Assembly (NCBI RefSeq): GCF_013184775.1 | Contig: NZ_JAATVV010000013.1 | Coordinates: 1 to 64,000 of the forward strand | DNA: 64,000 bases | Source: Martelella sp. HB161492 | Lineage (GTDB): Bacteria; Pseudomonadota; Alphaproteobacteria; Rhizobiales; Rhizobiaceae | Direction of reading: 5' to 3' | Shown here: positions 3,618 to 21,052 of the stretch, piece after piece | How the letters are laid out: each line of letters opens with the position of its first letter | Numbering within the stretch: position 1 is the first letter of the stretch | Program-made: the position numbers and the translations under genes | The notes under the pieces: generated by a model | The model's input: the letters and a program-made list of their open reading frames with translations, nothing else | Told to the model about the DNA's origin: nothing | Databases searched by the model: none

Positions 3618-3657
3618 GGAACGGTTTTTTCCTGATTGCCACGGCTTGGCCGGCGGG

Positions 3658-3686
3658 GATTGCCTGAGAGTCGCCGATTTGAGGCT
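3658..3686 (-). promoter_or_regulatory. regulon motif copy 1 (ThDP operon)
   Basis: Read on the minus strand this is AGCCTCAAATC, then GGCGACTC, then TCAGGCAATC. The 8-bp core is identical in four promoter regions of the locus. It points toward the ThDP-enzyme operon and ends 40 nt from the ATG at 3617 (55 nt from that at 3602). Proposed binding site of the AraC-family regulator at 19981-21018. Confidence 0.6.
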
Positions 3687-3702
3687 GAGACCTTCGTGAG
3701 CC

Positions 3703-3731
3703 ACCCAAAAGCTGGCGACTCCTGATCAAGA
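3703..3731 (+). promoter_or_regulatory. regulon motif copy 2 (monooxygenase operon)
   Basis: Reads ACCCAAAAGCT, then GGCGACTC, then CTGATCAAGA, on the plus strand, ending 58 nt before the monooxygenase ATG. Together with copy 1 it forms a divergent pair in the 172-bp space between two operons that are transcribed apart. Confidence 0.6.
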
Positions 3732-3789
3732 CCCGTTCGTCATTCTGTCAGAGGCTTGGAGGCAGACACATTCAAGGACGAGGAAACCC

Positions 3790-5334
3790 ATGACCGTGAC
3801 AATGCCTCAGAGCCCCGGGCACGCCCTTGCCGGCGGCACCCGCCCGCAGACAGGCGCGGAATATATCCAGTCGATTGCCGGTGACGGCCGCGAGATCTGG
3901 ATGAATGGCGAGCGCATCCACGACGTGACCACCCATCCGGCCTTCCGCAATTCGGTGCGGATGATCGCCAGGCTCTATGACGCCATGCATGACGAGGCCA
4001 ATGCAAGCGTGCTGCGCGCGCCGCTGCATGAGGGAACCGGCTGGACCCACCCGGCCTTCCAGGCGCCGCGCACGCTTGAGGAAAGCCTGCAGCAGAAGGA
4101 TGCCTATGCCGCCTGGGCGCGGATCGGCTATGGCTGGCTCGGCCGCTCGCCCGATTTCATCGGCGCCGCCTTCGGTCCGAGCTTCGCCGTCGAATCCGAT
4201 TATTTCGGCGCGTATCAGCAAAACGCCGCCGCCTTCGCGAAATATCTGCGCGAGACCGTCTCCTATATCGGTCATGCGATCGTCAACCCGCCGATCGACC
4301 GCTCGACACCGGGCACCGCCAAGGACATCATGATCCGCGTCGAGAAGGAGACGGATGCGGGGCTTTATGTTTCCGGCGCCAAGGTGGTTGCCACCGGCAT
4401 GGCGATTGCCCAGCAGGTGCTGATCGCCCACCACTTCATTCCGGTGTCCGACAAGAAATACGCCCCCGTCTTCGTCATCGACATCAACACGCCGGGGGTG
4501 AAGATGTATTGCCGCCGTTCCTACGAGCAGGACGCGACGCTGACGGCGACGCCCTTCGATGCGCCGATCTCCTCGCGGCTGGACGAGAACGATTCCATCC
4601 TCGTGCTCGACAATGCCTTCGTGCCCTGGGATCGGGTGCTGATGTATGATGCCCAGAAGGCCAACACCTTCATGGCGGTGCCCGGTCAGGCCGGTCGCGG
4701 CCTGCTGCAGGCCGGCGTCCGGCTGGCGGTCAAGCTCGATTTCATCTGCGGCCTGTTCATGAAGGCGGTCGAGGTCGGTGGCACCAAGGATTTTCGCGGC
4801 GTTCAGGCCGGCGTCGGCGAGTGCATCGCCTTCCGTCATGCGATCTGGGCGATCATGGAGGCAATGACGCGCGACGGCAGGCCCTGGCGCGAGCAGTATC
4901 TGCAGCCCAATCCGGTGCATGGCCACGCCTACCGGGTGCTTGCCGGCGATCTCTATTCGAAGATGCGCACCAATATCCTCAAGCATGTCGCTTCGGGGCT
5001 GATCTATCTGCCGTCCTCGGCGAAGGATTATCTCAATCCGGAGGTCAAGCCGATGCTCGACCAGTATGCGCGGGGTTCCTTCGGCATCAGTTCGGAAGAG
5101 CGTTCGAAGATCCTGAAACTGCTCTGGGATACGGTCGGTTCGGAATTCGGTTCGCGCCACGAGCTTTACGAGCTCAATTATTCCGGCAGCCAGGAACAGG
5201 TGCGCGTCGATCAGTATGTCCGCAGCTTCGACAATGGCACGGCGGCGCAGATGCTCGGCCTCGTCGACACCTGCATGGCCGAATATGATCTCAACGGCTG
5301 GACCGCGCCGGACCTCTTCAATCCCGGAGCCTGA
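3790..5334 (+). CDS. HpaB-family FADH2-dependent monooxygenase
   Basis: This 514-residue protein matches the 4-hydroxyphenylacetate 3-monooxygenase large-component family (acyl-CoA dehydrogenase-like fold) over its full usual length. It has the N-terminal segment found in HpaB (TGAEYIQSI, REIWMNGERI, HPAFRN), the central FAD-binding beta domain, and a C-terminal helical domain. Such enzymes use FADH2 supplied by a separate reductase to hydroxylate phenols. The reductase candidate is at 17227-17784 in the same locus. A 4-hydroxybutyryl-CoA dehydratase-type function shares this fold, but the iron-sulfur cysteines of that enzyme are not evident. It is first in a five-gene plus-strand operon with a bicupin, DUF3500, FAH and alpha/beta-hydrolase protein. 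A copy of the regulon motif precedes it. The substrate is unknown. Confidence 0.85.
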   Translation: MTVTMPQSPGHALAGGTRPQTGAEYIQSIAGDGREIWMNGERIHDVTTHPAFRNSVRMIARLYDAMHDEANASVLRAPLHEGTGWTHPAFQAPRTLEESLQQKDAYAAWARIGYGWLGRSPDFIGAAFGPSFAVESDYFGAYQQNAAAFAKYLRETVSYIGHAIVNPPIDRSTPGTAKDIMIRVEKETDAGLYVSGAKVVATGMAIAQQVLIAHHFIPVSDKKYAPVFVIDINTPGVKMYCRRSYEQDATLTATPFDAPISSRLDENDSILVLDNAFVPWDRVLMYDAQKANTFMAVPGQAGRGLLQAGVRLAVKLDFICGLFMKAVEVGGTKDFRGVQAGVGECIAFRHAIWAIMEAMTRDGRPWREQYLQPNPVHGHAYRVLAGDLYSKMRTNILKHVASGLIYLPSSAKDYLNPEVKPMLDQYARGSFGISSEERSKILKLLWDTVGSEFGSRHELYELNYSGSQEQVRVDQYVRSFDNGTAAQMLGLVDTCMAEYDLNGWTAPDLFNPGA

Positions 5335-5338
5335 GGCG

Positions 5339-6139
5339 ATGCGCAATATCGTCAGGAACCCTGAAGCGCAGTTTCCGGAGACCTTCAGGTCGCTGTTCCT
5401 CAACGGTCCGGAAGGCGGGCTCGACAGCTGCAACTGCCTGATCTCGCGCGTTCCGCCGGGGCATAAGGGGCCCCGGCTGCATACCCATCTGGTCGATCAG
5501 TTCTATTTCGTGCTCGAAGGCGAGACCACGGTGCAGATCGGCCGTGACATCTTCAAGGTCGGGCCGATGACCATGGTGTATTTTCCGGCAGGCACGCCGC
5601 ATTGCAACTGGAACGAGACGGACGCCTATGAGAAGCATTTCGAGTTCATGGTGCCGCGCCCGCCGAAGGACCGGCTGCTCGATTATTTCGAGGGCGAGGC
5701 TCCGGTCGTCGAAAATGCCGGTGACCTGATCACGCCGCTCAGCGAAGACGGCTATGCCATGGGCCGGCTTTTTGCCTCACAGCATCTCGCCCGCCGGGAG
5801 ACCGGTTCGCAGCACGCCCGCATCTATGCCGCGCGGGTTGCGCCGGGTTCCGGCGGGCCGGCGCTGCATTTCCACGATTTCGACCAGTTCTACTATGTGT
5901 TCGGTGGCGAACTCACCGTGCAGGTCGGTCATGAAAAGGCCGTCGCCCGTCCGGGCGATCTGGTGATGCTACCCAGGGGGGCGGTCCATACCAATTTCAA
6001 CGAGGGCGCGACCGACGAATATCACCTGGCGATCCTGGTGCCCGAGCCGGAGCCGGGAGCGCAGTTCGATTTCAAGGTGGCCGTCACCTATTCCGACGAG
6101 AAGCCTTTCATCAACGAGCCGGAGGCGAAACGCCGATGA
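5339..6139 (+). CDS. bicupin protein, probable ring-cleaving dioxygenase
   Basis: A 266-residue protein with two cupin domains. The frame is open upstream, but the ATG at 5339 has a GGAG/GAGG site just before it and sits 4 nt after the monooxygenase stop. Domain 1 carries H48, H50, Q54 and H88. Domain 2 carries H177, H179, Q183 and H217. Each fits the cupin metal motif H-x-H-x3-E...H except that the glutamate is glutamine in both domains. Bicupins include gentisate and quercetin dioxygenases. Sitting right after a phenol hydroxylase, ring cleavage of the hydroxylated product is the natural guess. An isomerase, sugar-binding or storage role cannot be excluded. It overlaps the DUF3500 gene by an ATGA. 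Confidence 0.8.
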   Translation: MRNIVRNPEAQFPETFRSLFLNGPEGGLDSCNCLISRVPPGHKGPRLHTHLVDQFYFVLEGETTVQIGRDIFKVGPMTMVYFPAGTPHCNWNETDAYEKHFEFMVPRPPKDRLLDYFEGEAPVVENAGDLITPLSEDGYAMGRLFASQHLARRETGSQHARIYAARVAPGSGGPALHFHDFDQFYYVFGGELTVQVGHEKAVARPGDLVMLPRGAVHTNFNEGATDEYHLAILVPEPEPGAQFDFKVAVTYSDEKPFINEPEAKRR

Positions 6140-7407
6140 CCCATAACAAGACCCTCAATCCGCTGACCGACGAGAAGCTGAAGGCAGCCTTTGGCGCAAT
6201 GGCGCATCCGCGCGATTTTCGCCCCTTCGTGCCGAAGGAAAAGGCCCCGGCTTCGCTCAACACCAGTCGCAGGGACCGCACCGACGAGGTGATGGAGACG
6301 GCGCTGATCCGCGAGACCCACGATCTCTGGGGCGCGCTGATGGCCGAACCCTACAAGGGCATCACCACCGATGGCACGCTGTGCCCGCCGGGCCGCGTGC
6401 TCCAGCCGAACGGGGCGCCACGGGCGGCGATGGAAGAGGCCGCAAAGGCTCTGCTCGCCGTCCTCCGCCCGGAGATTGCGGCAAAGATCCGCTTTGCCGC
6501 CGATGCGCCGGAATGGCGGCGCTGGCACAATATGCCGGTGCAGTGGCATCGTGACGGCTTCGGCCTTGAGGAGATGAATGAAGCCGAGCGGGCGGCAACG
6601 CATGCGCTGCTCGCCGCATCGCTCTCCAGGGCCGGCTATGCCCATCTTCTGGAACTCATGGAGATCAACCGCTTCTCCGGAGCCCTGATCGGCCGGGAAA
6701 AATATCTGAACGAAAACTGCTATCAGATCGGCCTGTTCGGCGAACCCGGCGAGCGGATCTGGGGCTTCCAGATCTACGGCCATCATCTCTGCCTTGCCTG
6801 CCGGCTGATCGGGGATACCTATGTCTTGTCGCCGACCTTTCTGGCCGCCGAACCCTCGGTGGTCGATGAGGGCAGGTTTGCCGGAACCGATGCCTTTGTC
6901 GAAAACGAGGATGCAGCGCTCGCGCTCTTGCGCGGCCTTGATCCGGAGCTGCGCCGCAAGGCGGTGACGCTTAACAGCATCCTTTCCGCCGATGTGCCCG
7001 AAGGCCGGCGTCACTGGGCCGACAGCCTGCATCTCGGCGGGGCCTTTCAGGACAACCGGGTGATCCCGCTGGAAGGCGTCTCGGCGTCGCACTTTCGACC
7101 CGAGGACAAGAAACGGCTGATGGCGCTGTTCGAGACCTTCTTCCTGCTGTTGCCGGAAGGACCGAAGGCTTCGCGTCTGGCCGAGATCGAGGCGCATCTC
7201 GATGAAACCTGGCTCACCTGGATGGGCGGTTATGATGACTGGGCGCCGTTCTATTTCCGGCTTCATTCGCCGGTGGTGCTGGCGGAATTCGATCACCATC
7301 AGGCCGTCTTCCTCACCAATGCCGAGCCTGCCCGCTTTCACATCCATACCCTGACCCGCATTCCCGAGGGCGGGGATTACGGCATGGACCTTCTGTCCGC
7401 GATCTGA
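6136..7407 (+). CDS. DUF3500 family protein
   Basis: A 423-residue protein I assign to DUF3500 from the central GFQIYGHHL segment and the C-terminal HIHTLTRIPEGGDYG segment, both of which recall that family. No signal peptide or membrane segment is seen. The function of the family is not known to me. Conserved histidines (the HH pair in the centre and H-x-H near the C-terminus) suggest metal or acid-base chemistry, which is inference. It starts inside the bicupin stop codon and is followed 10 nt later by the FAH-family gene, so it is made with the ring-modifying enzymes and is a good candidate for an unassigned step. Confidence 0.75.
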   Translation: MTHNKTLNPLTDEKLKAAFGAMAHPRDFRPFVPKEKAPASLNTSRRDRTDEVMETALIRETHDLWGALMAEPYKGITTDGTLCPPGRVLQPNGAPRAAMEEAAKALLAVLRPEIAAKIRFAADAPEWRRWHNMPVQWHRDGFGLEEMNEAERAATHALLAASLSRAGYAHLLELMEINRFSGALIGREKYLNENCYQIGLFGEPGERIWGFQIYGHHLCLACRLIGDTYVLSPTFLAAEPSVVDEGRFAGTDAFVENEDAALALLRGLDPELRRKAVTLNSILSADVPEGRRHWADSLHLGGAFQDNRVIPLEGVSASHFRPEDKKRLMALFETFFLLLPEGPKASRLAEIEAHLDETWLTWMGGYDDWAPFYFRLHSPVVLAEFDHHQAVFLTNAEPARFHIHTLTRIPEGGDYGMDLLSAI

Positions 7408-7417
7408 AGAGAGACCG

Positions 7418-8257
7418 ATGAAATTTGCAACCGTCAGCCATCAGGGCGAAACCCGCTTCGGTCTCGTCGAGGGCGAGGTGATCCACCTCGCCGATGCGGG
7501 CCGTCCGCTCAAATCCGTGCTTGCAGGCGATCTCGCCGCCGTTGCGCAAGAGCTGCGCCGGCGTCCCGCCGTGTCGCTGTCCGAAATTACCTTTCTGCCG
7601 GTGATCCCCGATGTCGAACAGATCATCTGTGCCGGGCTGAATTACCAGAAGCACCGTGACGAGACCCGGCCGGAAGCCCGCAAGGCCTATCCGGAATTCC
7701 CGGTGCTTTTCACCCGCTTTGCCACCTCGCTCACCGGCCATGGCGCGCCGATCATCAAGCCGAAGAATTCGAAGGTCGTTGATTACGAGGGCGAACTTGC
7801 CGTGATCATCGGCAAGCCCGGACGCCATATCGACAAGGCCGATGCCATGGCCCATGTCGCGGGCCTTGCCTGTTTCAACGATGTGTCGATGCGCGACTGG
7901 CAGATGCGCGGCGAGCAATGGGGGCCGGGCAAGAATTTCCCGACATCCGGGCCTTTCGGTCCCTATCTCGTGACGCTGGAGGAGACCGGCCCGGTCGATC
8001 AGCTGGAACTGCGCACCATTCTCGATGGTGAAGTGCTGCAGCAGGCGGGGCTCGACACGCTGATCTTCGATATCCCGACGCTGATTTCCTATTGCTCCGG
8101 TTTCTGCGCGCTGTCGCCGGGCGATGTGATCGTTACCGGAACACCGGGCGGCGTCGGCTTCACCCGCAATCCGCCGGTCCTGCTCGAACCGGGCAAGACC
8201 GTGGTGGTCGAGGTCACCCGCGTCGGGCGGCTCGAAAATCCGGTCGTTGGCGAATGA
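7418..8257 (+). CDS. fumarylacetoacetate hydrolase (FAH) family protein
   Basis: A 279-residue protein of the FAH / 2-hydroxyhepta-2,4-diene-1,7-dioate isomerase family. Visible family marks are the IICAGLNYQKH segment, the metal-binding DYEGELAVIIG (about 125-135), FNDVSMRDWQ, and the C-terminal GDVIVTGTPGGVGF. Members use Mg2+ to hydrolyse 1,3-dicarbonyl acids (fumarylacetoacetate, fumarylpyruvate) or to decarboxylate and isomerise ring-cleavage products. Its place after a hydroxylase and a bicupin fits hydrolysis of a ring-cleavage product. The last 4 bases overlap the next gene (ATGA), so it is translationally coupled. Confidence 0.87.
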   Translation: MKFATVSHQGETRFGLVEGEVIHLADAGRPLKSVLAGDLAAVAQELRRRPAVSLSEITFLPVIPDVEQIICAGLNYQKHRDETRPEARKAYPEFPVLFTRFATSLTGHGAPIIKPKNSKVVDYEGELAVIIGKPGRHIDKADAMAHVAGLACFNDVSMRDWQMRGEQWGPGKNFPTSGPFGPYLVTLEETGPVDQLELRTILDGEVLQQAGLDTLIFDIPTLISYCSGFCALSPGDVIVTGTPGGVGFTRNPPVLLEPGKTVVVEVTRVGRLENPVVGE

Positions 8258-9024
8258 ATTTTGCGACCGTCAACGGCATCTCCCTGCGCTACGACCTTCG
8301 GCCGGGCGATGGCGTTCCGCTTGTGCTTCTGCATGAAATGGGCGGGGCAATCGAAAGCTTCGATCTGGTCGTGAGGGCCTTGCCGGGGCGCACCGTGCTC
8401 CGGCTCGATCTGCGCGGCTTCGGCCTTTCCGAAAAGCCGGCCGGACCGCTGTCGATGGAGAATTTCGTCGATGACGTGATCGCATTGATGGATCATCTTG
8501 ATATCGCCGCAGCGCATCTTGCCGGATGCGCCGTTGGCGGTGGTGTCGCACTTGCAGCGGCGGCGCGGCTTGGCGGCCGCGCTGCGTCACTGACGGCGAT
8601 GGCGCCAGCGACGGGGGTTCCGCCGGAACGCCGCGACGGCTTGCTGAAACTGGCCGACATGCTGGAAGAAAACGGGGTGCGCGGCTTTCTCGAGGCCGAT
8701 ACGATCCCGAAAGCCTGGCCGGGCGATCATTTCGACCGGGGCAGCGAAGGCTTTGCCATTTTTCTGGCGACCCAGCTCGGGACATCGCCGGCCACCCTTG
8801 CCAGGACCTATCGCATGCTCGCAGACCTCGATCTTGCGCCGGCTTTCGCCGCGATTACCTGTCCGACGACACTCATCGCCGGGCAATATGACATCGCCCG
8901 CCCGCCGGTGCTCATTGAAACCATTGCCCGGCAGATACCGGGAGCGCGTGCTGTCACCGTTGCGAGCGGACATTTCATGGCGCTGCAAAATCCGGACATC
9001 GTTGCCGGACTTCTCGTCCCCTAA
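8254..9024 (+). CDS. alpha/beta-hydrolase-fold protein, PcaD-like, nucleophile replaced
   Basis: A 256-residue alpha/beta-hydrolase most like 3-oxoadipate enol-lactonases. It shows LLHEMGG (oxyanion-hole region, about 25-31), LDLRGFGLSEKP (about 51-62) and a late acid/His region (ITCPTTLIAGQYD and SGHFMAL). The nucleophile elbow, normally G-x-S-x-G, reads GCAVG (residues 91-95): alanine A93 replaces serine and a cysteine, C92, sits beside it. It may therefore use another mechanism or act as a non-hydrolytic protein. E. coli RutD has a comparable GHALG elbow, as I recall it. The start at 8254 makes an ATGA overlap with the FAH gene. An upstream in-frame extension to 8092 is antisense-like noise. 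Confidence 0.83.
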   Translation: MNFATVNGISLRYDLRPGDGVPLVLLHEMGGAIESFDLVVRALPGRTVLRLDLRGFGLSEKPAGPLSMENFVDDVIALMDHLDIAAAHLAGCAVGGGVALAAAARLGGRAASLTAMAPATGVPPERRDGLLKLADMLEENGVRGFLEADTIPKAWPGDHFDRGSEGFAIFLATQLGTSPATLARTYRMLADLDLAPAFAAITCPTTLIAGQYDIARPPVLIETIARQIPGARAVTVASGHFMALQNPDIVAGLLVP

Positions 9025-9635
9025 ACTGCTTTTGCCACCGCCGGAAAGGCTGTTGCCGTCATCGACGGTCGGCGCGCGGCTTCGGCGTGCCAGCGGGCGA
9101 CCGCCGGTGCATCGTCGCGCCAGGAGATCGCCGGGAAGCGGAAGTCGAGATAGGCAAGCAGCACGGCAAAGCAGATATCGCCGGCATCGAAGCGGGCGTC
9201 GGCGAGACGCGGTTCCATCCACAAAATGCCGCGCCGGATCGCAGCGATAAAGCCCTCGCGGTGTTCTGCCGTGTCGGTGTTCTGGACCCGGAACTGCTCG
9301 TCGAGAATGCGCACCGCCTTGTCGGTCATGGCATTCGCCATGGCGTGGCGGGTGAGGCATTCCCGTCGTCCGGCGCCGGTCGGAATGAGCGGACGGTCCG
9401 ACTGGCTCTCGAGGAATTCGAGAATGACGAAACTGTCGAAGATCATCTCGCCGTCAGCGACAAGGGCCGGTATCATCCCGACGGGATTGACCGGCAGCAG
9501 CTCCGGCGCCGGGGTCATCGGCGTGGTCACCACGTCGATGCGTGTCAGCCTGCCGGCAAGACCGAGTTCGTGGGCGGCGACCAGCACCTTGGCGACGAAG
9601 GGCGAGCGGGGGGAGGAATAAAGCTGCCAGGACAT
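9021..9635 (-). CDS. glutathione S-transferase family protein
   Basis: A 204-residue GST. The thioredoxin-like N-domain begins YSSPRSPFVAKV, with serines in the glutathione-activating position. It contains the cis-proline segment GMIPAL and the FDSFVILEFLE helix. An all-helical C-domain follows. In aromatic pathways GSTs of this size isomerise maleyl intermediates or cleave ethers, so a role beside the FAH-family enzyme is plausible. I start at 9635, where AAGGG lies a proper distance upstream. The reading frame continues to 9806 but that stretch overlaps the promoter side of the divergent MBL gene. It is convergent with the hydrolase gene, overlapping it by 4 bp. Confidence 0.85.
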   Translation of the reverse strand: MSWQLYSSPRSPFVAKVLVAAHELGLAGRLTRIDVVTTPMTPAPELLPVNPVGMIPALVADGEMIFDSFVILEFLESQSDRPLIPTGAGRRECLTRHAMANAMTDKAVRILDEQFRVQNTDTAEHREGFIAAIRRGILWMEPRLADARFDAGDICFAVLLAYLDFRFPAISWRDDAPAVARWHAEAARRPSMTATAFPAVAKAV

Positions 9636-9804
9636 GGAGAGCCCTTGTGGATGATATCTGCGGATGTCCACCAGTTTAAGGTCAAGACCGCCCCGGCGGA
9701 AGAGCCGGAACGGCATGCCGGACGGAAGAACAAGAACCCTTCCACCTGAGGCCAAGACCGGTTCGCCCCGCCGCGTCAGTTTCATGAAAATGGAGGAAAA
9801 ATTC

Positions 9805-10686
9805 ATGATGCATCATCGCCGGATCGGCGCAGCCGACGTCTATAATATTACCGAGATCATCGGTCCGACCCATGATCCGGCGGTCATTTACCCGGCACTT
9901 CCGGCGCACGAATTTGCAGCCCTTGCCGAAAAGCTTCAGCCCGCCCATTACGCCCCCGGCAACGGACGGCTGATCATCGGCATCCAGATCTGGCTTGTCC
10001 GGCTCGGCAACGACGTGATCGTCATCGATACCGGCATCGGCAATCGCAAGCCGCGCGGCCTGCCGCGCTTCGACCGGCTCAACACGCTGGTTCTCGCCTG
10101 GATGGAGGCGGCGGGGGCGGCCCGCGACAGGGTCACCATGGTGATCAACACCCATCTCCACGGCGATCATGTCGGCTGGAACACCATGGTTGATGGTGAC
10201 GGCTACGTGCCGACCTTTGCCAATGCCCGCTATCTGATGCCGCGCCTAGATTACGACTGGTGGCACCCGCGTTTCGTTGCCGCAAACGGCGTGGGCGAGA
10301 CCGAGGCCTTCACCGATGCGGTGATGCCGCTGGTGGATGCCGGACGGGTGGAATTCTACGACGCGGGCATGGAATTCGCACCCGGCCTCGTCGCCCGCGC
10401 CGCCTACGGCCACACGCCGGGCCAGATGCGCATCGACCTTGAAAGCCAGGGCGCGCGTGGCGTCTTTTCCGCCGATATCTTCCATTCGCCGCTGCAGATC
10501 CTGAGGCCCGATATCAACACGGCAATCGACGTTCTGCCCGAGGTGGCGCGCGAAACCCGCGCCGCCTTCCTCGCCGAAATGGCCGACAGCGGCACGCTGG
10601 TCATGCCCTGCCATTTCGGCGCTCCCCATTGCGTACGGATAACACGCGAAGGCGATGGCTATGGCTTTGTTGCAGGCGAGGGCTGA
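9805..10686 (+). CDS. metallo-beta-lactamase-fold hydrolase
   Basis: A 293-residue MBL-fold protein. The metal motif H-x-H-x-D-H is THLHGDH (H117, H119, D121, H122). Later ligands are visible in GHTPGQ, SADIFHS and the terminal HFGAPH. The overall pattern resembles lactonases and quorum-quenching-like MBL proteins rather than true beta-lactamases. The ATG at 9805 is chosen because GGAGG lies 8 nt upstream, and the reading frame upstream of it is not needed. It overlaps the next gene by 32 bp, so the two are co-translated. In the pathway it could open a lactone or hydrolyse a thioester. Confidence 0.85.
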   Translation: MMHHRRIGAADVYNITEIIGPTHDPAVIYPALPAHEFAALAEKLQPAHYAPGNGRLIIGIQIWLVRLGNDVIVIDTGIGNRKPRGLPRFDRLNTLVLAWMEAAGAARDRVTMVINTHLHGDHVGWNTMVDGDGYVPTFANARYLMPRLDYDWWHPRFVAANGVGETEAFTDAVMPLVDAGRVEFYDAGMEFAPGLVARAAYGHTPGQMRIDLESQGARGVFSADIFHSPLQILRPDINTAIDVLPEVARETRAAFLAEMADSGTLVMPCHFGAPHCVRITREGDGYGFVAGEG

Positions 10687-11455
10687 GACCGGCGATGGCG
10701 CGCTGATCGCCTTCCGTCACAGGCCGGGGCCCGGTCCGCTTGTCGTGTTCTGTCATCCGCATACCGGGCAGATGGCATCCTTCATGCCGCTGCTCGACGT
10801 CTGGAAAGGCAATGCGCTGGTCTTCGACCGGCGCGGCTATGGCCTGTCGACACGGGGGAAAGACCCGATGATAACCCAGGACGCGGATCTGGCGCTGCTT
10901 CTCGACCGACTCGGCATCGAGGCCGCAGTGCTGATCGGCGTTGCCGCCGGCGGTGCTCAGGCGGCAGGCCTTGCGGTCACGGCGCCTGAACGGGTCCTGG
11001 CGCTTGGCCTTGTTTCATCCTTTATCGGTCTGCCGCAAAGCGTCTGGCTGGAGGCGACGGGCGAGGCGCGGCCTGAGGGCGATGCCGCCCGGCGGGAACT
11101 CACCGCAGGCTTCCGCGCCGGGCCGCATTTTGCCGACTGGGCGGGGATCGCGGCGGAAAATGTCTCGGCCGGCGCCGGGGAGCCGCCGCAGCCGGTCACG
11201 GTTGATGTCGGGGCTCTGTCAGAATTTTCGCCGCTCATGCTGGCAACCGGCGAAGATGACCGGCTCTTCACACCGGCCATGCTTACCCATGCGAGCGGGC
11301 TGCTGCCTGAGGCGGAAACCCATGTCTTCGCAGGCGTCGCCCATGCGCCGCATGTTGAAAACCCGGCGGTCTTTGCGACCTGGACGGACCGGCTCGTCAG
11401 TCGCGCGTCAGCGTATCGTCCTCGCCCTCCGGCAGGCCGACATCGGCCTCATTGA
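10655..11455 (+). CDS. alpha/beta-hydrolase-fold protein, nucleophile replaced
   Basis: A 266-residue alpha/beta-hydrolase fold protein: LVVFCHPHTG (about 29-38), LVFDRRGYGLS (about 55-65), and a C-terminal His in GVAHAPHVENP. The nucleophile elbow reads GVAAG (residues 95-99), giving alanine A97 in place of serine with no neighbouring cysteine. This is the second protein of the locus with this loss, after the one at 8254-9024, and the two are not close copies. The gene begins 32 bp inside the MBL-fold gene. Its last 59 bp overlap the convergent CMD-family gene, so the C-terminal tail may not be conserved. Confidence 0.78.
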   Translation: MAMALLQARAETGDGALIAFRHRPGPGPLVVFCHPHTGQMASFMPLLDVWKGNALVFDRRGYGLSTRGKDPMITQDADLALLLDRLGIEAAVLIGVAAGGAQAAGLAVTAPERVLALGLVSSFIGLPQSVWLEATGEARPEGDAARRELTAGFRAGPHFADWAGIAAENVSAGAGEPPQPVTVDVGALSEFSPLMLATGEDDRLFTPAMLTHASGLLPEAETHVFAGVAHAPHVENPAVFATWTDRLVSRASAYRPRPPAGRHRPH

Positions 11456-11993: not shown

Positions 11994-12017
11994 CCGGATG
12001 ACCCGATCACGATAGCA

Positions 12018-13013: not shown

Positions 13014-13085
13014 GAACTCCTCCCTGATTTCCGAAAACAAAGCTTGAACCCTGGTCGCCAACAATGAGAATGCGGGCGCCTCCTG

Positions 13086-13114
13086 TCTTGTCATGGAGTC
13101 GCCTACCTCTGGCT
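13086..13114 (-). promoter_or_regulatory. regulon motif copy 3 (dctP)
   Basis: On the minus strand: AGCCAGAGGTA, GGCGACTC, CATGACAAGA. It ends 72 nt before the dctP ATG. The distal part shares CAAGA with copies 2 and 6. Confidence 0.6.
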
Positions 13115-13242
13115 TGGCGCGGGAGCAAGTGGCCAGCGATAGGGCCTGGTCGAAAACGCAAGGCTTTGTCGTCTGCGGGACCAAAAGCAGAGGCGGAGGC
13201 AGGCTAGTCTCGCCGCGACGACCCAATGGAGGAGATTTAAGC

Positions 13243-13998: not shown

Positions 13999-14008
13999 GC
14001 GGCAGGCA

Positions 14009-14962
14009 TCAGAAATCGAGGACGCGGACCGGATTTCCGTCGATGAAGGCGAGAATGTTCTCGATCGACTGGCGATAGAACATGCCCATGCATTCCTGCG
14101 TCGCGTAGCCGAGATGAGGTGTCAGCGTCACATTTTGAAGGCGGCGGAAGGGATGGTCCGCAGGAAGGGGTTCCTCCTCGAAGACATCGAGCGCGGCGCG
14201 GATGCGCCCCGCCGTAAGAGCTTCGAGCAGGGCCGGCCCGTCCACTAGCGCTGCCCGCGCCGTGTTGAGGATAAGCGCGCCCGGTTTCATCAAAGCGAGT
14301 TCGCCCCGGCCGATCATGCCGCGGGTCTGTGGCGTCAGGGGAAGGTTGAGTGACACGATATCGCTCTGCGCCATCAGTTCGTCGCGCGAAACCGCCGTTA
14401 TGTCACGGGCGGCGGCCTCGGCCCGATCGAGGCTGCGCGACCAGGCAAGCACCTTCATATCGGCGGCAAGCGCCATGCGTGCCAGGCGTCCCCCGATCCG
14501 GCCAGGACCGAGGATGCCGAGTGTCCGGCCGGAAAGCCGCCGGCCAAGTCCCGTCTGCTCCATGAAGCCGCCACGGGCGATCGCCGCCGCACCATCAACG
14601 ATGCCGCGTTCGGCGGCGATCATCAGGCCGAAGGCGAATTCGGCGGTTTCCTCGGGATGATAATCGCCGGACCAGCAGACGGTGACGCCGCGCTCGCGCA
14701 GTGTGGCGATATCGAAATGGCGGACCGTGGCCCCGGTCTGGGCGACAAGCTTCAGCCGGTCGAGCGACAACAGCGTTCTGCGGTCGAAGACGCTGCGCTC
14801 GCGCAGCGGCACGATGACATCGCTTTGAGAAAGTGCCGCTGCCAGCGCGTCGCCGGCAAGAGCGGTGCGATGGATGATCACGTCAGCCCGCTGTCGCAAT
14901 TCGCTCCAGTCAGCGGCGCTCTCGGCAATATCCGCCCAGTCGTCGAGTACATCGATGCGCAT
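14009..14962 (-). CDS. D-2-hydroxyacid dehydrogenase family protein
   Basis: A 317-residue NAD-dependent D-isomer 2-hydroxyacid dehydrogenase. The Rossmann motif is LGPGRIGGRLA, followed by the substrate-binding Arg in NTARAALVD, Glu in DVFEEEPLP and the catalytic His in LTPHLGY. It resembles phosphoglycerate dehydrogenase-like proteins but lacks the regulatory C-terminal domains, so serine synthesis is unlikely. It would interconvert a 2-hydroxy acid and a 2-oxo acid. The start at 14962 follows GGCGGAGG. The frame is open to 15226 but that stretch overlaps the SDR gene on the other strand. A fifth, weaker copy of the regulon motif lies 48 nt upstream. Confidence 0.87.
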   Translation of the reverse strand: MRIDVLDDWADIAESAADWSELRQRADVIIHRTALAGDALAAALSQSDVIVPLRERSVFDRRTLLSLDRLKLVAQTGATVRHFDIATLRERGVTVCWSGDYHPEETAEFAFGLMIAAERGIVDGAAAIARGGFMEQTGLGRRLSGRTLGILGPGRIGGRLARMALAADMKVLAWSRSLDRAEAAARDITAVSRDELMAQSDIVSLNLPLTPQTRGMIGRGELALMKPGALILNTARAALVDGPALLEALTAGRIRAALDVFEEEPLPADHPFRRLQNVTLTPHLGYATQECMGMFYRQSIENILAFIDGNPVRVLDF

Positions 14963-15010
14963 GGCTTTTCCTCCGCCTTTCCAATTGAGTAGCGTGGGGC
15001 AGGCGGGGTC

Positions 15011-15039
15011 GCTTGATCGCTTGTCGCCATTCTTTTGCT
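15011..15039 (-). promoter_or_regulatory. regulon motif copy 5 (2-hydroxyacid dehydrogenase), degenerate
   Basis: On the minus strand: AGCAAAAGAAT, GGCGACAA, GCGATCAAGC. The core matches six of eight bases but the flanks agree well with copy 2 (AAAA and GATCAAG). It ends 48 nt from the ATG. Confidence 0.45.
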
Positions 15040-15122
15040 CAGGACGCGAAACCTTCGCCGTGGCTCTGGACATCGCACGCTCCCGCCCGCGAGGGTCAAA
15101 AAAACAGTGAGCGAGGAGCGAC

Positions 15123-15875
15123 ATGCGATTTGAAGGAAAGACCGCCATCGTCACGGCGGCAGCATCAGGCATATGCAGGGCGACGGCGTTGCGGCTCGCG
15201 CGCGAAGGCGCGAAGGTTGCGGCCATCGACGTTTCACCGGCGGTCGAGGAGACGGTTGCGCAAATCCGGGCATCGGGCGGCAGCGCCGAGGCCTATATCC
15301 TCGATGTCACCGACCGTTCTCATCTTGCCGAAACCCTCGACAGGGCCGAGGCCAGGCTCGGGCCTTGTGATGTCCTGGTCAACGGCGTCGGCCGTTCCTC
15401 CGTCGGCAAGGGCGGCGGCGAGTTCTGCGACAGCAATCCGGAAGACTGGGCCGAGGTGCTCGATCTCTCGCTGACCTCGCAGATGCTGATCTGCCGGCGT
15501 ATCGTTCCCGGCATGAGGACACGCGGCTACGGAAGGGTGGTCAATATCTCCTCGGTGAGCTGGCTGATGCCGACACCGCGCTTTGCCGATTACGCCGCCG
15601 CCAAGGCCGGCGTGGTCGGCTTCACCCGGGTCCTGGCGATCGAGGTGGCGCGTCACGGCGTCACGGTCAACGCCGTCTCGCCCGGGCCGATCGAGACCGC
15701 AGCCACGGCGAAGCATCCGCCGGAAACCCGCGCCCGCGTCGAGGCGACCATTCCGATGGGCCATTACGGCGAGCCGGAGGATGTCGCCGCGGCGATCCTG
15801 TTCCTCGCCTCGGACGAGGCCCGTTTCATCACCGCGCAGAATATTGTCGTCGGCGGCGGGCGGGGGATCGTCTGA
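15123..15875 (+). CDS. short-chain dehydrogenase/reductase
   Basis: A 250-residue classical SDR. The catalytic Ser-Tyr-Lys set is present (S143/S144, Y157, K161 in ADYAAAKAG), as are the NNAG-equivalent VNGVG and the PG motif SPGPIETAA. The nucleotide-binding TGxxxGxG motif is degenerate: residues 11-18 read TAAASGIC, so the first glycine is alanine and the last is cysteine. It may prefer an unusual cofactor orientation or work slowly. It is first in a plus-strand group with the SnoaL-like, oxocamphor-hydrolase-like and flavin-reductase genes. Its stop and the next ATG share one base (TGATG). Confidence 0.87.
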   Translation: MRFEGKTAIVTAAASGICRATALRLAREGAKVAAIDVSPAVEETVAQIRASGGSAEAYILDVTDRSHLAETLDRAEARLGPCDVLVNGVGRSSVGKGGGEFCDSNPEDWAEVLDLSLTSQMLICRRIVPGMRTRGYGRVVNISSVSWLMPTPRFADYAAAKAGVVGFTRVLAIEVARHGVTVNAVSPGPIETAATAKHPPETRARVEATIPMGHYGEPEDVAAAILFLASDEARFITAQNIVVGGGRGIV

Positions 15876-16387
15876 TGCGCTACATTCCTGTTCAGGCCTG
15901 GGCAAGCCGTGCCGGACTGCTCACCTTGCCACCGCGCCAGCCGGTCACTCCGGATGGTGTTGCGGTGCGTCTTGCGATCGGCGAGCTCTTCGCGCGCTAC
16001 GGGATCGCCCATGACGAGGTTGACCACGCGGCGATGGTTGAGCTTTTTGCAGAAGATGCGGAGCTGAAGGTTTCCATTGCCGGGCCGCCTTTCGAAACCC
16101 ATCACGGCGCGGCGGCGATTGCCGCCAATTTCGGCCGGGTTGCGGCGACCCAGAGCGATCAGCGCCGCCATGCCATCACCAATATCGAAACGGCCGTCAT
16201 CGAATCCGGACGGGCGCAATGCCGCGCCTATGGCATCGTTTCGGCCGCCGATGCCGAAGGCATCCGCCTCGTCGTTTCCTGCGCCTATGAGGCCGAATGC
16301 CGGCTCGGGGGCGATGGCCTCTGGCGTTTTTCAAAGCTGTGGATCGGGATGGATACCTATCGGGGCCATGCCCCCGGAACGGACTGA
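15875..16387 (+). CDS. SnoaL-like / NTF2-fold protein
   Basis: A 170-residue protein with the NTF2-like cone fold seen in SnoaL-type cyclases, ketosteroid isomerases and small dioxygenase subunits: helix AIGELFARYGIAHDEVD, then FAEDAELKVS, HHGAAAIAANF and a C-terminal strand set ending WRFSKLWIGMD. A Tyr/His/Asp-lined pocket is suggested by YGIAHDEVDH but active residues cannot be fixed. It is coupled to the SDR gene (TGATG) and 11 nt from the oxocamphor-hydrolase-like gene. A dehydratase, cyclase or isomerase acting on the same ring is a reasonable guess. Confidence 0.75.
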   Translation: MRYIPVQAWASRAGLLTLPPRQPVTPDGVAVRLAIGELFARYGIAHDEVDHAAMVELFAEDAELKVSIAGPPFETHHGAAAIAANFGRVAATQSDQRRHAITNIETAVIESGRAQCRAYGIVSAADAEGIRLVVSCAYEAECRLGGDGLWRFSKLWIGMDTYRGHAPGTD

Positions 16388-16398
16388 GGGAGGACAAT

Positions 16399-17163
16399 AT
16401 GCGTAAGTTCAGCGACTACAAGGATGATTACGAGACCTTGCGGATGGAGCGGGATGGCGATGGCATCCTGCTCATCACCGCCCATACCGATGGCGGGCCG
16501 CTCCGCTGGGGGGCGCTGCCGCACGAGGAATGGCCGCATGCCTTCCATGACATTGCCATGGACCGGGAAAACCGGGTGGTGATCCTCACCGGCACGGGGG
16601 ATGAATTCTCCGGGCCGCGCCCGCCGGCAACATCGCGCCAGGCAAGGCCGATTGCGGATATGGACCGGATCGTCTTCGACGGGCGGCACCTGCTTGCCAA
16701 TCTGCTGGAGATCCAGGCGCCGATGATCTCGGCGATCAACGGACCCTGCATCCGCCATTCGGAAATCCCGCTGCTTTCCGACATCGTGCTCGCCTCGGAG
16801 AATACCGTGATCGAGGATGCCGGCCATTTCGACAGCGGTCTTGCGCCCGGCGATGGCGTCAACATCGTCTATCCGGCGCTGATGGGTTTCAACCGGGCGC
16901 GTTATTTCCTGATGACCTCGCAAAGCCTCTCGGCGCATGAGGCGCAGGCCATGGGCCTTGTCGGCGAGGTGCTGCCCCGCGATCAGCTGATGGATCGCGC
17001 CTGGTACTGGGCCCGCAAGCTTGCCCGCCATGATGACATGCATCTGCGCAATACACGTCAGATCATGACGCTCGAGCTCCGGCGCAAGCTTCAGGATCAC
17101 CTCGGCTATACGCTGATGCTCGAGGCGATGGCGATGTCGGGGCGGACGAAGACCGCACTCTGA
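16399..17163 (+). CDS. 6-oxocamphor hydrolase-like crotonase (beta-diketone C-C hydrolase)
   Basis: A 254-residue crotonase-fold protein that matches my recollection of Rhodococcus 6-oxocamphor hydrolase along its length: YETLRMERDG, FHDIAMDREN, VVILTGTG, SDIVLASE, APGDG and RARYFLMTSQ. The residues I recall as functional in that enzyme are all present: W37, H42, H120, H143, D152 and E242 (W40, H45, H122, H145, D154 and E244 there). That enzyme cleaves a cyclic 1,3-diketone by retro-Claisen hydrolysis without coenzyme A. This suggests the pathway makes a 1,3-diketone ring. The ATG at 16399 has GGGAGGA upstream. The frame from 16297 is not needed. A CoA-dependent hydratase is the alternative, but the diketone residues argue against it. 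Confidence 0.8.
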   Translation: MRKFSDYKDDYETLRMERDGDGILLITAHTDGGPLRWGALPHEEWPHAFHDIAMDRENRVVILTGTGDEFSGPRPPATSRQARPIADMDRIVFDGRHLLANLLEIQAPMISAINGPCIRHSEIPLLSDIVLASENTVIEDAGHFDSGLAPGDGVNIVYPALMGFNRARYFLMTSQSLSAHEAQAMGLVGEVLPRDQLMDRAWYWARKLARHDDMHLRNTRQIMTLELRRKLQDHLGYTLMLEAMAMSGRTKTAL

Positions 17164-17226
17164 CGTGCTGCGAAAGGTGTTCGCCCGGTTGGCGGGCGGC
17201 AAGGGCCGATCAGAAGGAGAAGAGCC

Positions 17227-17784
17227 ATGACGACAGGCGACACGGTGGCGGAAGCCATCGGCATTGCTGACTTCAAGCGGGCGATGCGCTCGCTTCCGGC
17301 GCAGGTGGCGATCATTGCCAGCCGCTCGGCCGGAACCCGCATCGCCATGACTGCGACCGCGGTGACCTCGCTCTCTGCCGAGCCGCCGCAGCTTCTCGTC
17401 TGCATCCACAGGATGGCGCGTCCGGCGGCGGTGATCGAGGCGGCTGGCGCTTTCTCGGTCAACCTCGCAAGCGTCGGGCAGGCGGATGTCGCCACCCAGT
17501 GCGCATTGCCGGGCCTTGAGCCCGATGAGCGCTTCGAGCGCGGATGCTGGACCGCTTCGCCATATCTTGCCCAGCCTCTGCTCGAGGGTGCCCTCGTCGG
17601 CTTCGAGTGCGAGCTTGTTTCGAAGACAGAGCACGGCACGCATTTCGTCTTCGTCGGCCTGATCCGGCATGTGCGGTTTTCTGACGGAGAGCCGCTTCTC
17701 TATCATGACGGAAGCTACCGGGAGATCGGTCGCCGGCTCGACTGGCGCGATCACGAATGGGACAATATCGGTCTCGCTTTCTGA
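17227..17784 (+). CDS. flavin reductase (HpaC-like), partner of the monooxygenase
   Basis: A 185-residue flavin-reductase-like (split-barrel) protein. Typical features are FKRAMRSLPAQVAII, GxRIAMTATAVTSLSAEPPQLLVCI and FSVNLAS, then HFVFVGLIRHV and LLYHDGSYREI near the C-terminus. Such proteins reduce FMN or FAD with NAD(P)H and pass it to two-component monooxygenases. The only such monooxygenase in the window is the HpaB-like protein 12 kb away, so the two probably pair. It is last in the SDR group, 63 nt after the preceding gene, with AGAAGGAG upstream, and is followed by a terminator. Confidence 0.87.
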   Translation: MTTGDTVAEAIGIADFKRAMRSLPAQVAIIASRSAGTRIAMTATAVTSLSAEPPQLLVCIHRMARPAAVIEAAGAFSVNLASVGQADVATQCALPGLEPDERFERGCWTASPYLAQPLLEGALVGFECELVSKTEHGTHFVFVGLIRHVRFSDGEPLLYHDGSYREIGRRLDWRDHEWDNIGLAF

Positions 17785-17810
17785 CCGCCCGCAACGATTG
17801 AGACACGAAA

Positions 17811-17840
17811 ACGGCCGGAGCAGCGCTCCGGCCGTTTCTT
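17811..17840. terminator. terminator between convergent flavin reductase and dctQM
   Basis: A 9-bp perfect stem (CGGCCGGAG / CTCCGGCCG) around CAGCG, with TTTCTTT after it on the plus strand and a short T run on the other side. It can serve both convergent genes. Confidence 0.7.
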
Positions 17841-17860
17841 TGTGCTCAGTCGACCGAACG

Positions 17861-19801
17861 TTACATGGTCGACGGCAGAAAGGTGACGATCGCCGGAAAC
17901 AGGATCAGCAGGATGATCTTGAGGATCGTGGAGCCGAAGAAGGGCCAGCAGCCGCGATAGACGGTTGCAAGCGGGATCGAGCGGTCAAGCGCCGAGATGA
18001 CGAAGATATTGATGCCGAACGGCGGCGAGATCATGCCAGCCTCGACGCAGATGATCGTCATCAGGCCCCACCAGATCGGATCATAACCGAGATTTTCCAC
18101 CAGAGGCACGAAGATCGGGATGGTGATCACCATCATCGCGAAGGCATCCATGGCGGTACCAAGAACCAGATAGCAGGCGATCAGCGCAATGATCACGCCG
18201 AGCGGCGGCAGGCCGAGCGTGTTGACGAGCGAGACAAAGGCGCCGGGCACATCGGAAATGCCGAAGAAGAAGGAGAGCATGGTGACGCCGAAGATCAGCG
18301 AATACATCATCGCCAGCGTCCGGGTCGTTTCCGCCATGGTCTGCCAGAAGCTTTCGACGTTGATCTTGCCGCGTGCAACAGCGATCACGAAGGCTCCGGC
18401 CGCCCCGACAGAACCGGCCTCGAGCTCGGTGAAAAAGCCGAAATAGATGCCGCCAAGGACGACGGCCAGCAGCAGCAGCACCGACCATGATTTCTTTGCC
18501 GCATCGGCAAGTTCTCCGAGGGGGGCACGCGGTCCGGCTTCAGCATGTTTGGGAAACAGGATCAGCCAGATCACCACAGCACCCATATAGAGGATGGTCG
18601 CGAGAATGCCGGGCAGAATGGCGCCGACGAACAGCTTACCGACGGATTCCTGCGTCATGATGGCATATAGGATCAGGGCTGATGATGGCGGGATCAGCTG
18701 TCCGAGCGTGCCGCCGGCGGCGATCGAACCGGACGATAATTCCGCCGAATAGTTGCGGGCGCGCATTTCACCAAGCGCGATGCGGCCAATCGACATCTGC
18801 GTTGCGATCGACGAGCCGGTCAGCGTGCCGAAAGCGGCGCAGGCGAGGATCGAGGCATGGGCAAGCCCGCCGCGAATATGGCCGACCATTGCATTGGCGA
18901 GGCGATAAAGGTCGGAGCCGATGCCAGCCACCGAGGCGAAGGCGCCCATCAGCAGGAACAGCGGCAATACGCTCATGCCATCCTGCAGCACGAAACTGGT
19001 GATTTCCGATCCGAGCACGTCGAGGGAGGCGCCACTGTCCAGCATTGTCGCCGTGCCGATGAGGCCGGCAATGCCCATGGCGACACCGATCGGGACCGTC
19101 AGCAGGATCAAGACCCACATGCCGATGAAGACGAGGAGCGCCAGGATGAGCGGGTTTTGAGGGGCAAGCACGGTGAATGGCCTGCCGGGCAGAATGCCCA
19201 TCATCGAGAGCGCGACCCAGGACAGGATCAGGCCGAGCAGAACCGTGCCCGCAAGACCGGGAAGGCCGCCAATCGCCAGCGCTTCGCGGGCATTTCTGAC
19301 GATCTGCACCGCCATGACCAGCGCGGCGAGCACCAGGGCGATCGTCATGCCATAGACGAAGGGCGCTGTTGCGACATTGGTCATGATCGTTGTCTGACCG
19401 GTTCGCTGCATTGTCTGGGCCACCTCGAACACGCGCCAGGCGACGAGCCCGAAGAACAGCATTGTCAGGCTGGCGGCGAACAGTGCCATCAGCTTCGACG
19501 CCGTGTGCGAGACCTTCCGTTCGAGAACGGTGATCACCAGAGCGGCGCCGACATGCAGCCCGTAAGGCAGGCAGGTCGCTGCGGCGATGGCGACGAGATA
19601 GGCGTTGATCTCGTTCAGCCCATAGAGCGAGCGGCCGAAGCCGTTTCTGAGAATGATGTCGAGGACATTGGCAAAGGCAATGAGCAATATGGCCGCCACG
19701 GCCACCGAGGCGACGCGACGGGCCGTACCTTCGAGCAAATGTGTGTGCGAACGGCCGGAACGCAGCTGTTCCGGCACGTCTGTGATTCTGGTGGACGTCA
19801 A
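17861..19801 (-). CDS. TRAP transporter fused permease DctQM
   Basis: About 646 residues. The first 165 or so (after EGTARRVASV) are the four-helix DctQ small subunit. The rest is the large DctM subunit with about a dozen hydrophobic segments, GTLTGSSIATQMSIG, AGGTLGQLIPPSS and MISPPFGINIF. Fused QM proteins work with a separate binding protein, here DctP at 12018-13013. I place the start at TTG 19801, because GGGGAGGAAAGG precedes it at good spacing while the ATGs further up (19849, 19915) lack one. The regulon motif then lies 71 nt upstream, matching dctP. It is divergent from the AraC regulator gene. Confidence 0.87.
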   Translation of the reverse strand: MTSTRITDVPEQLRSGRSHTHLLEGTARRVASVAVAAILLIAFANVLDIILRNGFGRSLYGLNEINAYLVAIAAATCLPYGLHVGAALVITVLERKVSHTASKLMALFAASLTMLFFGLVAWRVFEVAQTMQRTGQTTIMTNVATAPFVYGMTIALVLAALVMAVQIVRNAREALAIGGLPGLAGTVLLGLILSWVALSMMGILPGRPFTVLAPQNPLILALLVFIGMWVLILLTVPIGVAMGIAGLIGTATMLDSGASLDVLGSEITSFVLQDGMSVLPLFLLMGAFASVAGIGSDLYRLANAMVGHIRGGLAHASILACAAFGTLTGSSIATQMSIGRIALGEMRARNYSAELSSGSIAAGGTLGQLIPPSSALILYAIMTQESVGKLFVGAILPGILATILYMGAVVIWLILFPKHAEAGPRAPLGELADAAKKSWSVLLLLAVVLGGIYFGFFTELEAGSVGAAGAFVIAVARGKINVESFWQTMAETTRTLAMMYSLIFGVTMLSFFFGISDVPGAFVSLVNTLGLPPLGVIIALIACYLVLGTAMDAFAMMVITIPIFVPLVENLGYDPIWWGLMTIICVEAGMISPPFGINIFVISALDRSIPLATVYRGCWPFFGSTILKIILLILFPAIVTFLPSTM

Positions 19802-19872
19802 CCTTTCCTCCCCGGTCAATGGCACCGCCAGTTTTTGTCTGCCTCCCATGGTGCTCGGCCAGCAAAGGCCAG

Positions 19873-19901
19873 TCTTGTTCCAGAGTCCATCACCATTTGC
19901 C
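19873..19901 (-). promoter_or_regulatory. regulon motif copy 6 (dctQM), degenerate
   Basis: On the minus strand: GGCAAATGGTG, ATGGACTC, TGGAACAAGA. The core matches five of eight bases (GACTC) and the distal part keeps GA-CAAGA. It ends 71 nt from the proposed TTG start. Confidence 0.4.
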
Positions 19902-19980
19902 GATGAATTTATCAAAAGCCAAGTTTTCTTGCGCCGTTTTGCCGCAGGCGTATAGTCGGTTGAAAATGGGAGGAGATATC

Positions 19981-21018
19981 ATGGGAATGGGTTTGTCGGG
20001 TGCCGTCAAGGCGCCACCGGCAGAGGCGCCGCTTTACGGCAGTTTCATGCAGCCTTCGGTGAACAGTCTGGAGGTTCCGCCAGCCAAGCGATTGAGTTAC
20101 TGGAAGAGCAATGTCGATCGCCATAGCGGCATGGATATCCGTTGCAGCACCGCAAATTTCGTTGGCAGCATGGTCACCCGATCTTTCGGTCTTTGCGCCA
20201 TTCACGGCGTTGAAATTTCAACGGCGCATCGGGCCGTTCGCGCCCGCTCGCGCGAGAACCTCTGCTTCGCCCATGTTCAGGTGCGCAATGACGGCGCCCG
20301 GTTCAATGGCAATCGCGAAATGGCGATCCCGCAGGGTTCGATGATCATCTATGACGCGGCGGAACCCTATGAACTGGAATTCGACGGAGCGTCGCAAAGC
20401 CTGGTGCTGACGATCCCGAAGAGCGATCTCCTGAAGCGTGTGACCGATCTGCAAATGCATATCGACGAGCAGATCCGCTACGATCCGCACAAGGTGGCGA
20501 TGCTGGCCGGGCTGATGGGCGGATTGCTGGCCTCGCCGGTCGGCCAGCGGCAATCGGTGCTGGACGGGCTTGCCGAAAGCGTCATCAGTCTACTGGTGGC
20601 AACGCTTTACGACTGCGACGAAACCGTTTCGCATGGCGCTGCGACATTCGGAACCGCCGCGACGCTGCAGCGGATCAAGGCCTATATCAAAACGCATATC
20701 GACGATCCGGATCTCAACCCGGTGAAGACCGCTGATGCCATGGGCATCACCGTCAGCTACCTGCACAAGATCTTTCTGCAGAACAACACCACGCTGATGC
20801 AATATGTGCTGGCCGAACGGCTGGAGCTTTGCCGCCGCGACATCGCCAAGGCCGACAGGACCGGCGGCATCAGCCAGGTGGCCTATAATTGGGGGTTCAA
20901 CGACGCCTCGCATTTCTCGCGCAGTTTCCGCAAGCGCTTCGGCATCTCGCCGCGCGAATACCGGGCCGAGGTGCTTCAGCGCAATGCGCGCATCGACCAC
21001 TCGCCTCCCTCCGACTGA
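19981..21018 (+). CDS. AraC-family transcriptional regulator (FeaR-like)
   Basis: A 345-residue regulator. The N-terminal half resembles the AraC-binding-like domain of FeaR-type activators (ENLCFAHVQ, QGSMIIYDAAEPYEL), which senses the inducer. Residues 240-335 hold two helix-turn-helix motifs: LNPVKTADAMGITVSYLHKIF, and the signature ISQVAYNWGFNDASHFSRSFRKRFGISPREYR. The ATG at 19981 follows GGGAGGAGATATC. The longer frame to 19819 overlaps the DctQM promoter. It is the only pathway-type regulator inside the catabolic locus, so it is the natural owner of the six shared motif copies. Confidence 0.88.
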   Translation: MGMGLSGAVKAPPAEAPLYGSFMQPSVNSLEVPPAKRLSYWKSNVDRHSGMDIRCSTANFVGSMVTRSFGLCAIHGVEISTAHRAVRARSRENLCFAHVQVRNDGARFNGNREMAIPQGSMIIYDAAEPYELEFDGASQSLVLTIPKSDLLKRVTDLQMHIDEQIRYDPHKVAMLAGLMGGLLASPVGQRQSVLDGLAESVISLLVATLYDCDETVSHGAATFGTAATLQRIKAYIKTHIDDPDLNPVKTADAMGITVSYLHKIFLQNNTTLMQYVLAERLELCRRDIAKADRTGGISQVAYNWGFNDASHFSRSFRKRFGISPREYRAEVLQRNARIDHSPPSD

Positions 21019-21023
21019 AGCGC

Positions 21024-21052
21024 TGCCATGATTTGGCGACTCTGGGAAGAGC
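21024..21052 (+). promoter_or_regulatory. regulon motif copy 4 (aldehyde dehydrogenase)
   Basis: TGCCATGATTT, GGCGACTC, TGGGAAGAGC on the plus strand, just after the AraC gene stop and 64 nt before the aldehyde dehydrogenase start. The 8-bp core is exact. Confidence 0.55.

Follow-up and report, generated by a model that had tools for sequence, protein, structure and literature searches.

Activators of the AraC/XylS family, as exemplified by AraC and XylS themselves, act from sites upstream of the core promoter (class I) or from sites overlapping the -35 hexamer (class II), and such promoters are compared with the consensus -35 and -10 hexamers. Here we describe a set of operator-like sites in a catabolic locus of Martelella sp. 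HB161492, contained in the first 64,000 nucleotides of contig NZ_JAATVV010000013.1 (this whole stretch is called the window). We consider it probable that these sites are the operators of an AraC/XylS-family activator encoded within the same locus.

Among described systems, CphR of Rhodococcus sp. YH-5B is an AraC-type activator of a two-component, HpaB-related phenol monooxygenase; its site at the cphA2A1 promoter is described as two imperfect direct repeats spanning -35 to -69, with a two-base overlap between the proximal repeat and the -35 hexamer (PMC6205950). As is proposed for the present regulator, CphR acts on an HpaB-like monooxygenase operon through direct repeats that reach the -35 region, but its boxes follow TGCA-N6-GGNTA with a 20-bp period, by the positions given there, and serve a single promoter rather than the multi-operon set found here (PMC6205950). 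Half-sites of this CphR/XylS type are not matched by our 28 aligned sites, which show CMARA, GGCGACTC and CAAGA. The mannitol promoter of Pseudomonas fluorescens is bound by MtlR, an AraC/XylS-type activator, in two blocks of 15 bp, located at -72 to -58 and -50 to -36; these positions give, by arithmetic, a 22-bp period like that proposed here, although MtlR serves a sugar-alcohol system and its site is described as lying upstream of the -35 sequence (PMC4514859). RamA resembles the present case as an AraC-family activator whose sites overlap the core promoter or lie further upstream (class I and II), probably in opposite directions, and differs as a small monomer without a ligand domain that regulates stress and drug resistance (PMC8811837). 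Given these parallels, the mechanism proposed below is of a known kind; for the operator sequence and the pathway, no match was found in the titles and abstract openings of the literature searched.

Conserved sites at the promoters of the locus

An initial annotation of the window had proposed that a shared 29-bp motif marks six promoters. Its octamer, GGCGACTC, is exact at 3668-3675 (minus), 3714-3721 (plus), 13096-13103 (minus) and 21035-21042 (plus) and nowhere else in the window, and the degenerate copies were found again at 15011-15028 and 19873-19890 (both minus). Recomputed gaps between core end and start codon agree with the 40 to 72 nt claimed: 40 nt for the thiamine pyrophosphate (TPP)-dependent enzyme, 48 for the 2-hydroxyacid dehydrogenase, 58 for the HpaB-type monooxygenase and 64 for the succinate-semialdehyde dehydrogenase (SSADH)-type aldehyde dehydrogenase (ALDH), with almost equal distances for the two tripartite ATP-independent periplasmic (TRAP) transporter operons, dctP (72) and dctQM (71, from a TTG start). 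The full composite motif is CMARA-N4-GGCGACTC-N5-CAAGAC. The sites below, which serve among others a metallo-beta-lactamase (MBL) hydrolase and a short-chain dehydrogenase/reductase (SDR) operon, are given with their scores and ranks under the matrix described next.

3705..3733, plus strand: putative operator before the HpaB monooxygenase operon, from CMARA to CAAGACC (30.6 bits, rank 1)
13084..13112, minus strand: putative operator before dctP (25.3 bits, rank 2)
3656..3684, minus strand: putative operator before the TPP-enzyme operon (23.0 bits, rank 3)
15009..15037, minus strand: putative operator of the SDR operon, lying upstream of SDR and on the opposite strand (19.9 bits, rank 4)
19871..19899, minus strand: putative operator before dctQM, reversed and 90 nt upstream of araC (17.8 bits, rank 5)
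9731..9759, plus strand: weak putative operator before the MBL hydrolase, found by the matrix (13.7 bits, rank 7)
21026..21054, plus strand: doubtful operator before the SSADH-type ALDH (13.3 bits, rank 8)

Three relatives carry comparable loci. Aquimixticola soesokkakensis (A; stretches L011/L012) and the metagenome-assembled genome NORP194 (N; L015/L016, overlapping L004) were found with the locus AraC protein as query, and genome G786 (G; L013/L014) with HpaB alone. HpaB is 76-81% identical between these relatives and the window, and AraC 60-62%; the comparison is informative because gene order is partly rearranged among the four loci. Two distant AraC loci, L005 (29%) and L006 (27%), were left out. 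AraC was detected in one of 297 sampled genomes of the family (E <= 1e-70), one of 385 of the class (E <= 1e-80) and one of 13 of the genus (E <= 1e-60), each time the genome of origin, and HpaB (E <= 1e-220) in two of 394 genomes of the family of A and one of 249 of the order of N, counting A and N themselves. A plasmid collection was not used as a source of loci; there AraC matched two records, both from Methylocystis at 34.6% identity, and HpaB matched 162, all below 60%. In A, the two ends of the 300,070-bp contig share 127 bp and a dctP gene spans them, which makes a circular 300-kb replicon the probable carrier of its locus.

All three relatives keep the sites at the HpaB, TPP-enzyme, dctP, dctQM/araC, SDR and MBL promoters while the flanks have diverged. 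The 18-bp core of the TPP-enzyme site is identical in the window, A and N and matches at 16 of 18 positions in G. A site precedes dctQM in all four loci, and dctP genes carry one in every locus, with weak versions (four mismatches) at A_dctP1 and N_dctP1. MBL sites of three to four mismatches occur in A, G and N at a place similar to that of the window copy, which the initial annotation had missed. Downstream of the TPP-enzyme site, a GTGGCAW sequence (window 3630-3642) is also kept in the four loci, at the expected -10 region.

The site set was drawn from 47 upstream regions, and regions judged to hold no near-consensus match were left out, including W_CMD2, W_GST, W_MFS (W denoting the window), A_CMD2, A_GST, N_2HADH, N_dctPb and N_araC2. 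Core alignment and column counts used 28 sites and column information 29 (the window MBL site added); a set of 28 with the window MBL site in and the ALDH site out served for leave-one-genome-out ranks and for shifting the motif against itself.

The initial annotation had suggested a scan with a weight matrix of its six copies; we scanned with a 29-column matrix from 22 sites of A, G and N only. Five of the six window copies took ranks 1-5 of 127,944 positions, and the ALDH copy rank 8. Across 396,295 bp elsewhere in the same genome the best score was 14.6 bits, whereas the lowest-ranked of these five copies reaches 17.8. When each genome was left out in turn, the seven listed sites of A took ranks 1-7 of 56,030, the six of G ranks 1-6 of 73,890, and the nine of N ranks 1-7, 9 and 14 of 72,026.

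Matches that are short and rich in GC, and that were selected by eye close to start codons, could have arisen by chance, and the shorter patterns behave in just this way. The octamer, which the initial annotation had emphasised, stands at background level in the window (4 against 4.23 expected in shuffles), as does GGCGACTCN5CAAGA with up to three mismatches (28 against 26.05); with up to two, the latter occurs 83 times in the whole genome against 125 for the mirrored pattern. Both were dropped as stand-alone evidence. For the five strong copies, chance is refuted by conservation at orthologous promoters in three relatives together with the matrix ranks, and as an account of the set we regard it as highly improbable, though it may hold for the ALDH copy. 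The exact 18-mer pattern has two matches in the 5.28-Mb genome (3714 and 13086), both in the locus, and none in the mirrored control; each relative genome has one, its HpaB site. The composite with up to two mismatches finds only the HpaB and dctP copies in the genome of origin. The motif is real, and the composite and its conservation, rather than the octamer, carry the evidence. The proposal that a common operator ties together scattered, differently oriented genes of one locus is supported.

The ALDH copy stands apart. It is equalled or beaten by two window matches outside the top five, the MBL copy and a match at 35185 (15.1 bits, rank 6), the latter scoring above both weak copies and treated as background. 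Matches of its strength occur at a background rate of about 0.001 per 250-bp upstream region (by arithmetic), and for that reason the site is plausible but unproven. It has no comparator, since in A and N the ALDH gene lies behind an enoyl-CoA hydratase (ECH) gene and the stretches of G yielded no ALDH. This copy is weak and only suggestive as an operator.

Site architecture and the candidate regulator

Several features that played no part in picking the sites are conserved. The initial annotation had noted an AGCC/TGCC/ACCC block ahead of the octamer; an upstream element does exist, and its sequence across 28 sites is CMARA, with C at -9, M at -8, A at -7, R at -6 and A at -5. Over 29 sites aligned on the 18-mer, positions -9, -7 and -5 hold 1.10, 1.28 and 1.24 bits, against a maximum of 0.83 in 5000 shuffles. 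Downstream, A at column 38 (1.14 bits) and T at column 42 (0.94 bits) exceed the largest of 5000 shuffles (0.92) and agree with the second and sixth bases of a -10 hexamer, CANNNT in columns 37-42, which by sequence lies 17 bp past a -35-like AAGACC inside the site (columns 14-19). When the motif was slid against itself, both the whole core and the proximal box gave -22 as the best off-register shift. We read the site as a direct repeat of 22 bp, complete in its downstream unit and apparently reduced to one box in its upstream unit. Judged by its bases, the layout is that of an AraC-family activator site overlapping the -35 element. The sites, their conservation and their promoter-like spacing are computational observations. 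The following features belong to this architecture and to its candidate binder.

3751..3756, plus strand: -10-like hexamer in the promoter of HpaB, at columns 37-42, with A of column 38 and T of column 42 conserved over 29 sites
15066..15072, plus strand: CTGGACA between the reversed site and SDR, invariant in the alignment of the four loci
19981..21018, plus strand: AraC/XylS-family regulator, candidate binder of the sites (PF12833, PF00165, PF14525)

The initial annotation had named this AraC protein as the natural candidate, and it still appears to be the best one. It has a C-terminal double helix-turn-helix (PF12833, 67.1 bits against a cut-off of 33.6; PF00165, 43.4 against 26.6) and an N-terminal ligand domain of the AraC_binding_2 kind (PF14525, 38.5 against 27). 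Its best family match is FeaR, which covers almost the full length of the protein (NF007243; residues 37-331, 146.3 bits, under the cut-off of 199). HpaA, the 4-hydroxyphenylacetate regulator (TIGR02297), was rejected as an identity, with 30 bits over residues 227-329 only against a cut-off of 274.65. The protein occurs in all four loci, including that of G, which was found without it. Between loci, identity is 75-81% in its DNA-binding part and 51-57% in the N-terminal part. N also encodes a second AraC paralog (L015:14260-15237), 43% identical to that of the window, and near it a second dctP with its own site (L015:12031).

Alternatively, the sites could be genuine conserved operators of a regulator encoded elsewhere, with the neighbouring AraC controlling something else. 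Two of the three relatives were found by the AraC query, which makes their co-occurrence partly a matter of selection; AraC is nevertheless present in the G locus found via HpaB alone, and in N the site stays beside araC although dctQM is elsewhere. Moreover, 198 other genomes of the family, with no match to the locus AraC at E <= 1e-70 among the up to seven candidates that were scored in each, contain the composite at chance level when two mismatches or fewer are allowed (five matches against seven for the mirrored control), and the apparent 22-bp repeat, which overlaps -35, has the layout of AraC-family sites. A regulator encoded elsewhere is thus, in our estimate, unlikely.

The claim that every copy points at its gene does not hold for the copy at 15011-15039, which had been assigned to the 2-hydroxyacid dehydrogenase. 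A site on the strand opposite to SDR lies upstream of this gene in all four loci. In A and G it faces the 3' end of a carboxymuconolactone decarboxylase (CMD) gene, and in N a divergent major facilitator superfamily (MFS) gene more than 500 bp away that has a nearer candidate. The dehydrogenase of N has no site within 250 bp (five mismatches at best), whereas SDR in N has one, which argues that the copy belongs to SDR; we assign it to the SDR operon and not clearly to the dehydrogenase, the earlier assignment having named the wrong gene or one of two. The invariant CTGGACA is a possible -35 element of the SDR promoter or another regulatory box. Before the MFS gene of N there is an extra site-like sequence (L016:8777) that scores 17.6 bits with the relatives' matrix and 13.2 in leave-one-genome-out scoring, and G has a candidate before CMD (L014:1268, 15.1 bits).

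In N, araC and dctQM lie apart and each keeps a site, the araC-side site facing the 3' end of a CMD gene. These separate sites argue for autoregulation of araC, which the initial annotation had not considered, and the window copy at 19873-19901 probably serves araC as well as dctQM. Its reversed position upstream of the araC start, like that of the SDR site, could mean that AraC is a dual regulator, activating at the sites that overlap -35 and repressing at the two reversed ones. We find this doubtful, as reversed upstream sites are described as activating too in related systems (PMC8811837).

Activation by the locus AraC remains the reading we prefer. Binding by AraC, its action as a dimer, activation rather than repression, and the inducer are what we infer. 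In each operator, two direct-repeat units would follow one another at 22 bp. The upstream one would be reduced to CMARA; the downstream one, GGCGACTC-N5-CAAGA, would be complete and share its 3' end with the -35-like AAGACC, 17 bp from the -10-like CANNNT. With its inducer, presumably the pathway substrate or an intermediate, a regulator dimer would bind and assist RNA polymerase in starting transcription (class II). The monooxygenase, TPP-enzyme and both TRAP-transporter operons, and probably the MBL operon, would be switched on in this way, and the regulator would also act on its own gene. At SDR, the reversed site upstream of the conserved CTGGACA suggests class-I-like activation.

Several points weigh against this account. 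The sites of the relatives were first picked by their likeness to the window 18-mer, and orthologs are not independent of one another. With one mismatch allowed, the 18-mer has 12 matches in the three relatives' whole genomes, seven of them in the locus, against ten for the mirrored pattern. The sites at SDR and araC point away from these genes, the upstream unit keeps one conserved box only, and the distal box, taken by itself, has its best fit at +11 rather than at -22. The ALDH copy is reached or exceeded at two of the 396,295 background bp. Finally, since A and N were found by an AraC search, G is the one unselected co-occurrence of AraC with the sites.

Genes of the locus and the proposed pathway

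The enzymes encoded are the HpaB-type monooxygenase, the TPP enzyme, an amidohydrolase, the SDR, the 2-hydroxyacid dehydrogenase and the SSADH-type ALDH, accompanied by genes for a cupin, a DUF3500 protein, a fumarylacetoacetate (FAA) hydrolase, a CMD protein, the TRAP component DctP and a fused DctQM. The monooxygenase scores 530 bits against TIGR02310, under the cut-off of 885, while the TPP enzyme scores above the cut-off of NF004772. The nearest solved structures for the protein labelled an enoyl-CoA hydratase are 6-oxocamphor hydrolase, at 232 bits, and a beta-diketone hydrolase, at 217 bits. The protein at 17272-17742 is 67.5% identical to its counterpart in N; judged by its sequence, it is a likely flavin reductase, the partner expected for HpaB.

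6136-7407: DUF3500 protein, encoded beside a monooxygenase

For a DUF3500 protein in the gallate route of Aspergillus nidulans, a putative role as a ring-cleaving dioxygenase with 1,2,3,5-tetrahydroxybenzene as substrate has been proposed (PMC12388069). Tentatively, and as a possibility that we do not favor strongly, the regulon may mark a single coherent pathway of bacteria, so far undescribed, that acts on a cyclic or polyhydroxylated aromatic acid imported via the TRAP transporter. Hydroxylation by the HpaB-type monooxygenase and the flavin reductase would be followed by ring opening by the DUF3500 protein, and then by the action of the 6-oxocamphor-hydrolase-like beta-diketone hydrolase and the TPP-dependent enzyme. 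In this case the inducer specificity of AraC would be new, and its operator would have three boxes phased at 22 bp and would be used in either orientation.

As a regulatory design, the system is ordinary. This rare catabolic locus now has a defined operator, together with a candidate for its regulator and a list of genes that is based on five strong sites, one weak but conserved site and one doubtful site. The regulon could help to sort the pathway genes from non-members, and its promoters could be used as a sensor to find the inducer.

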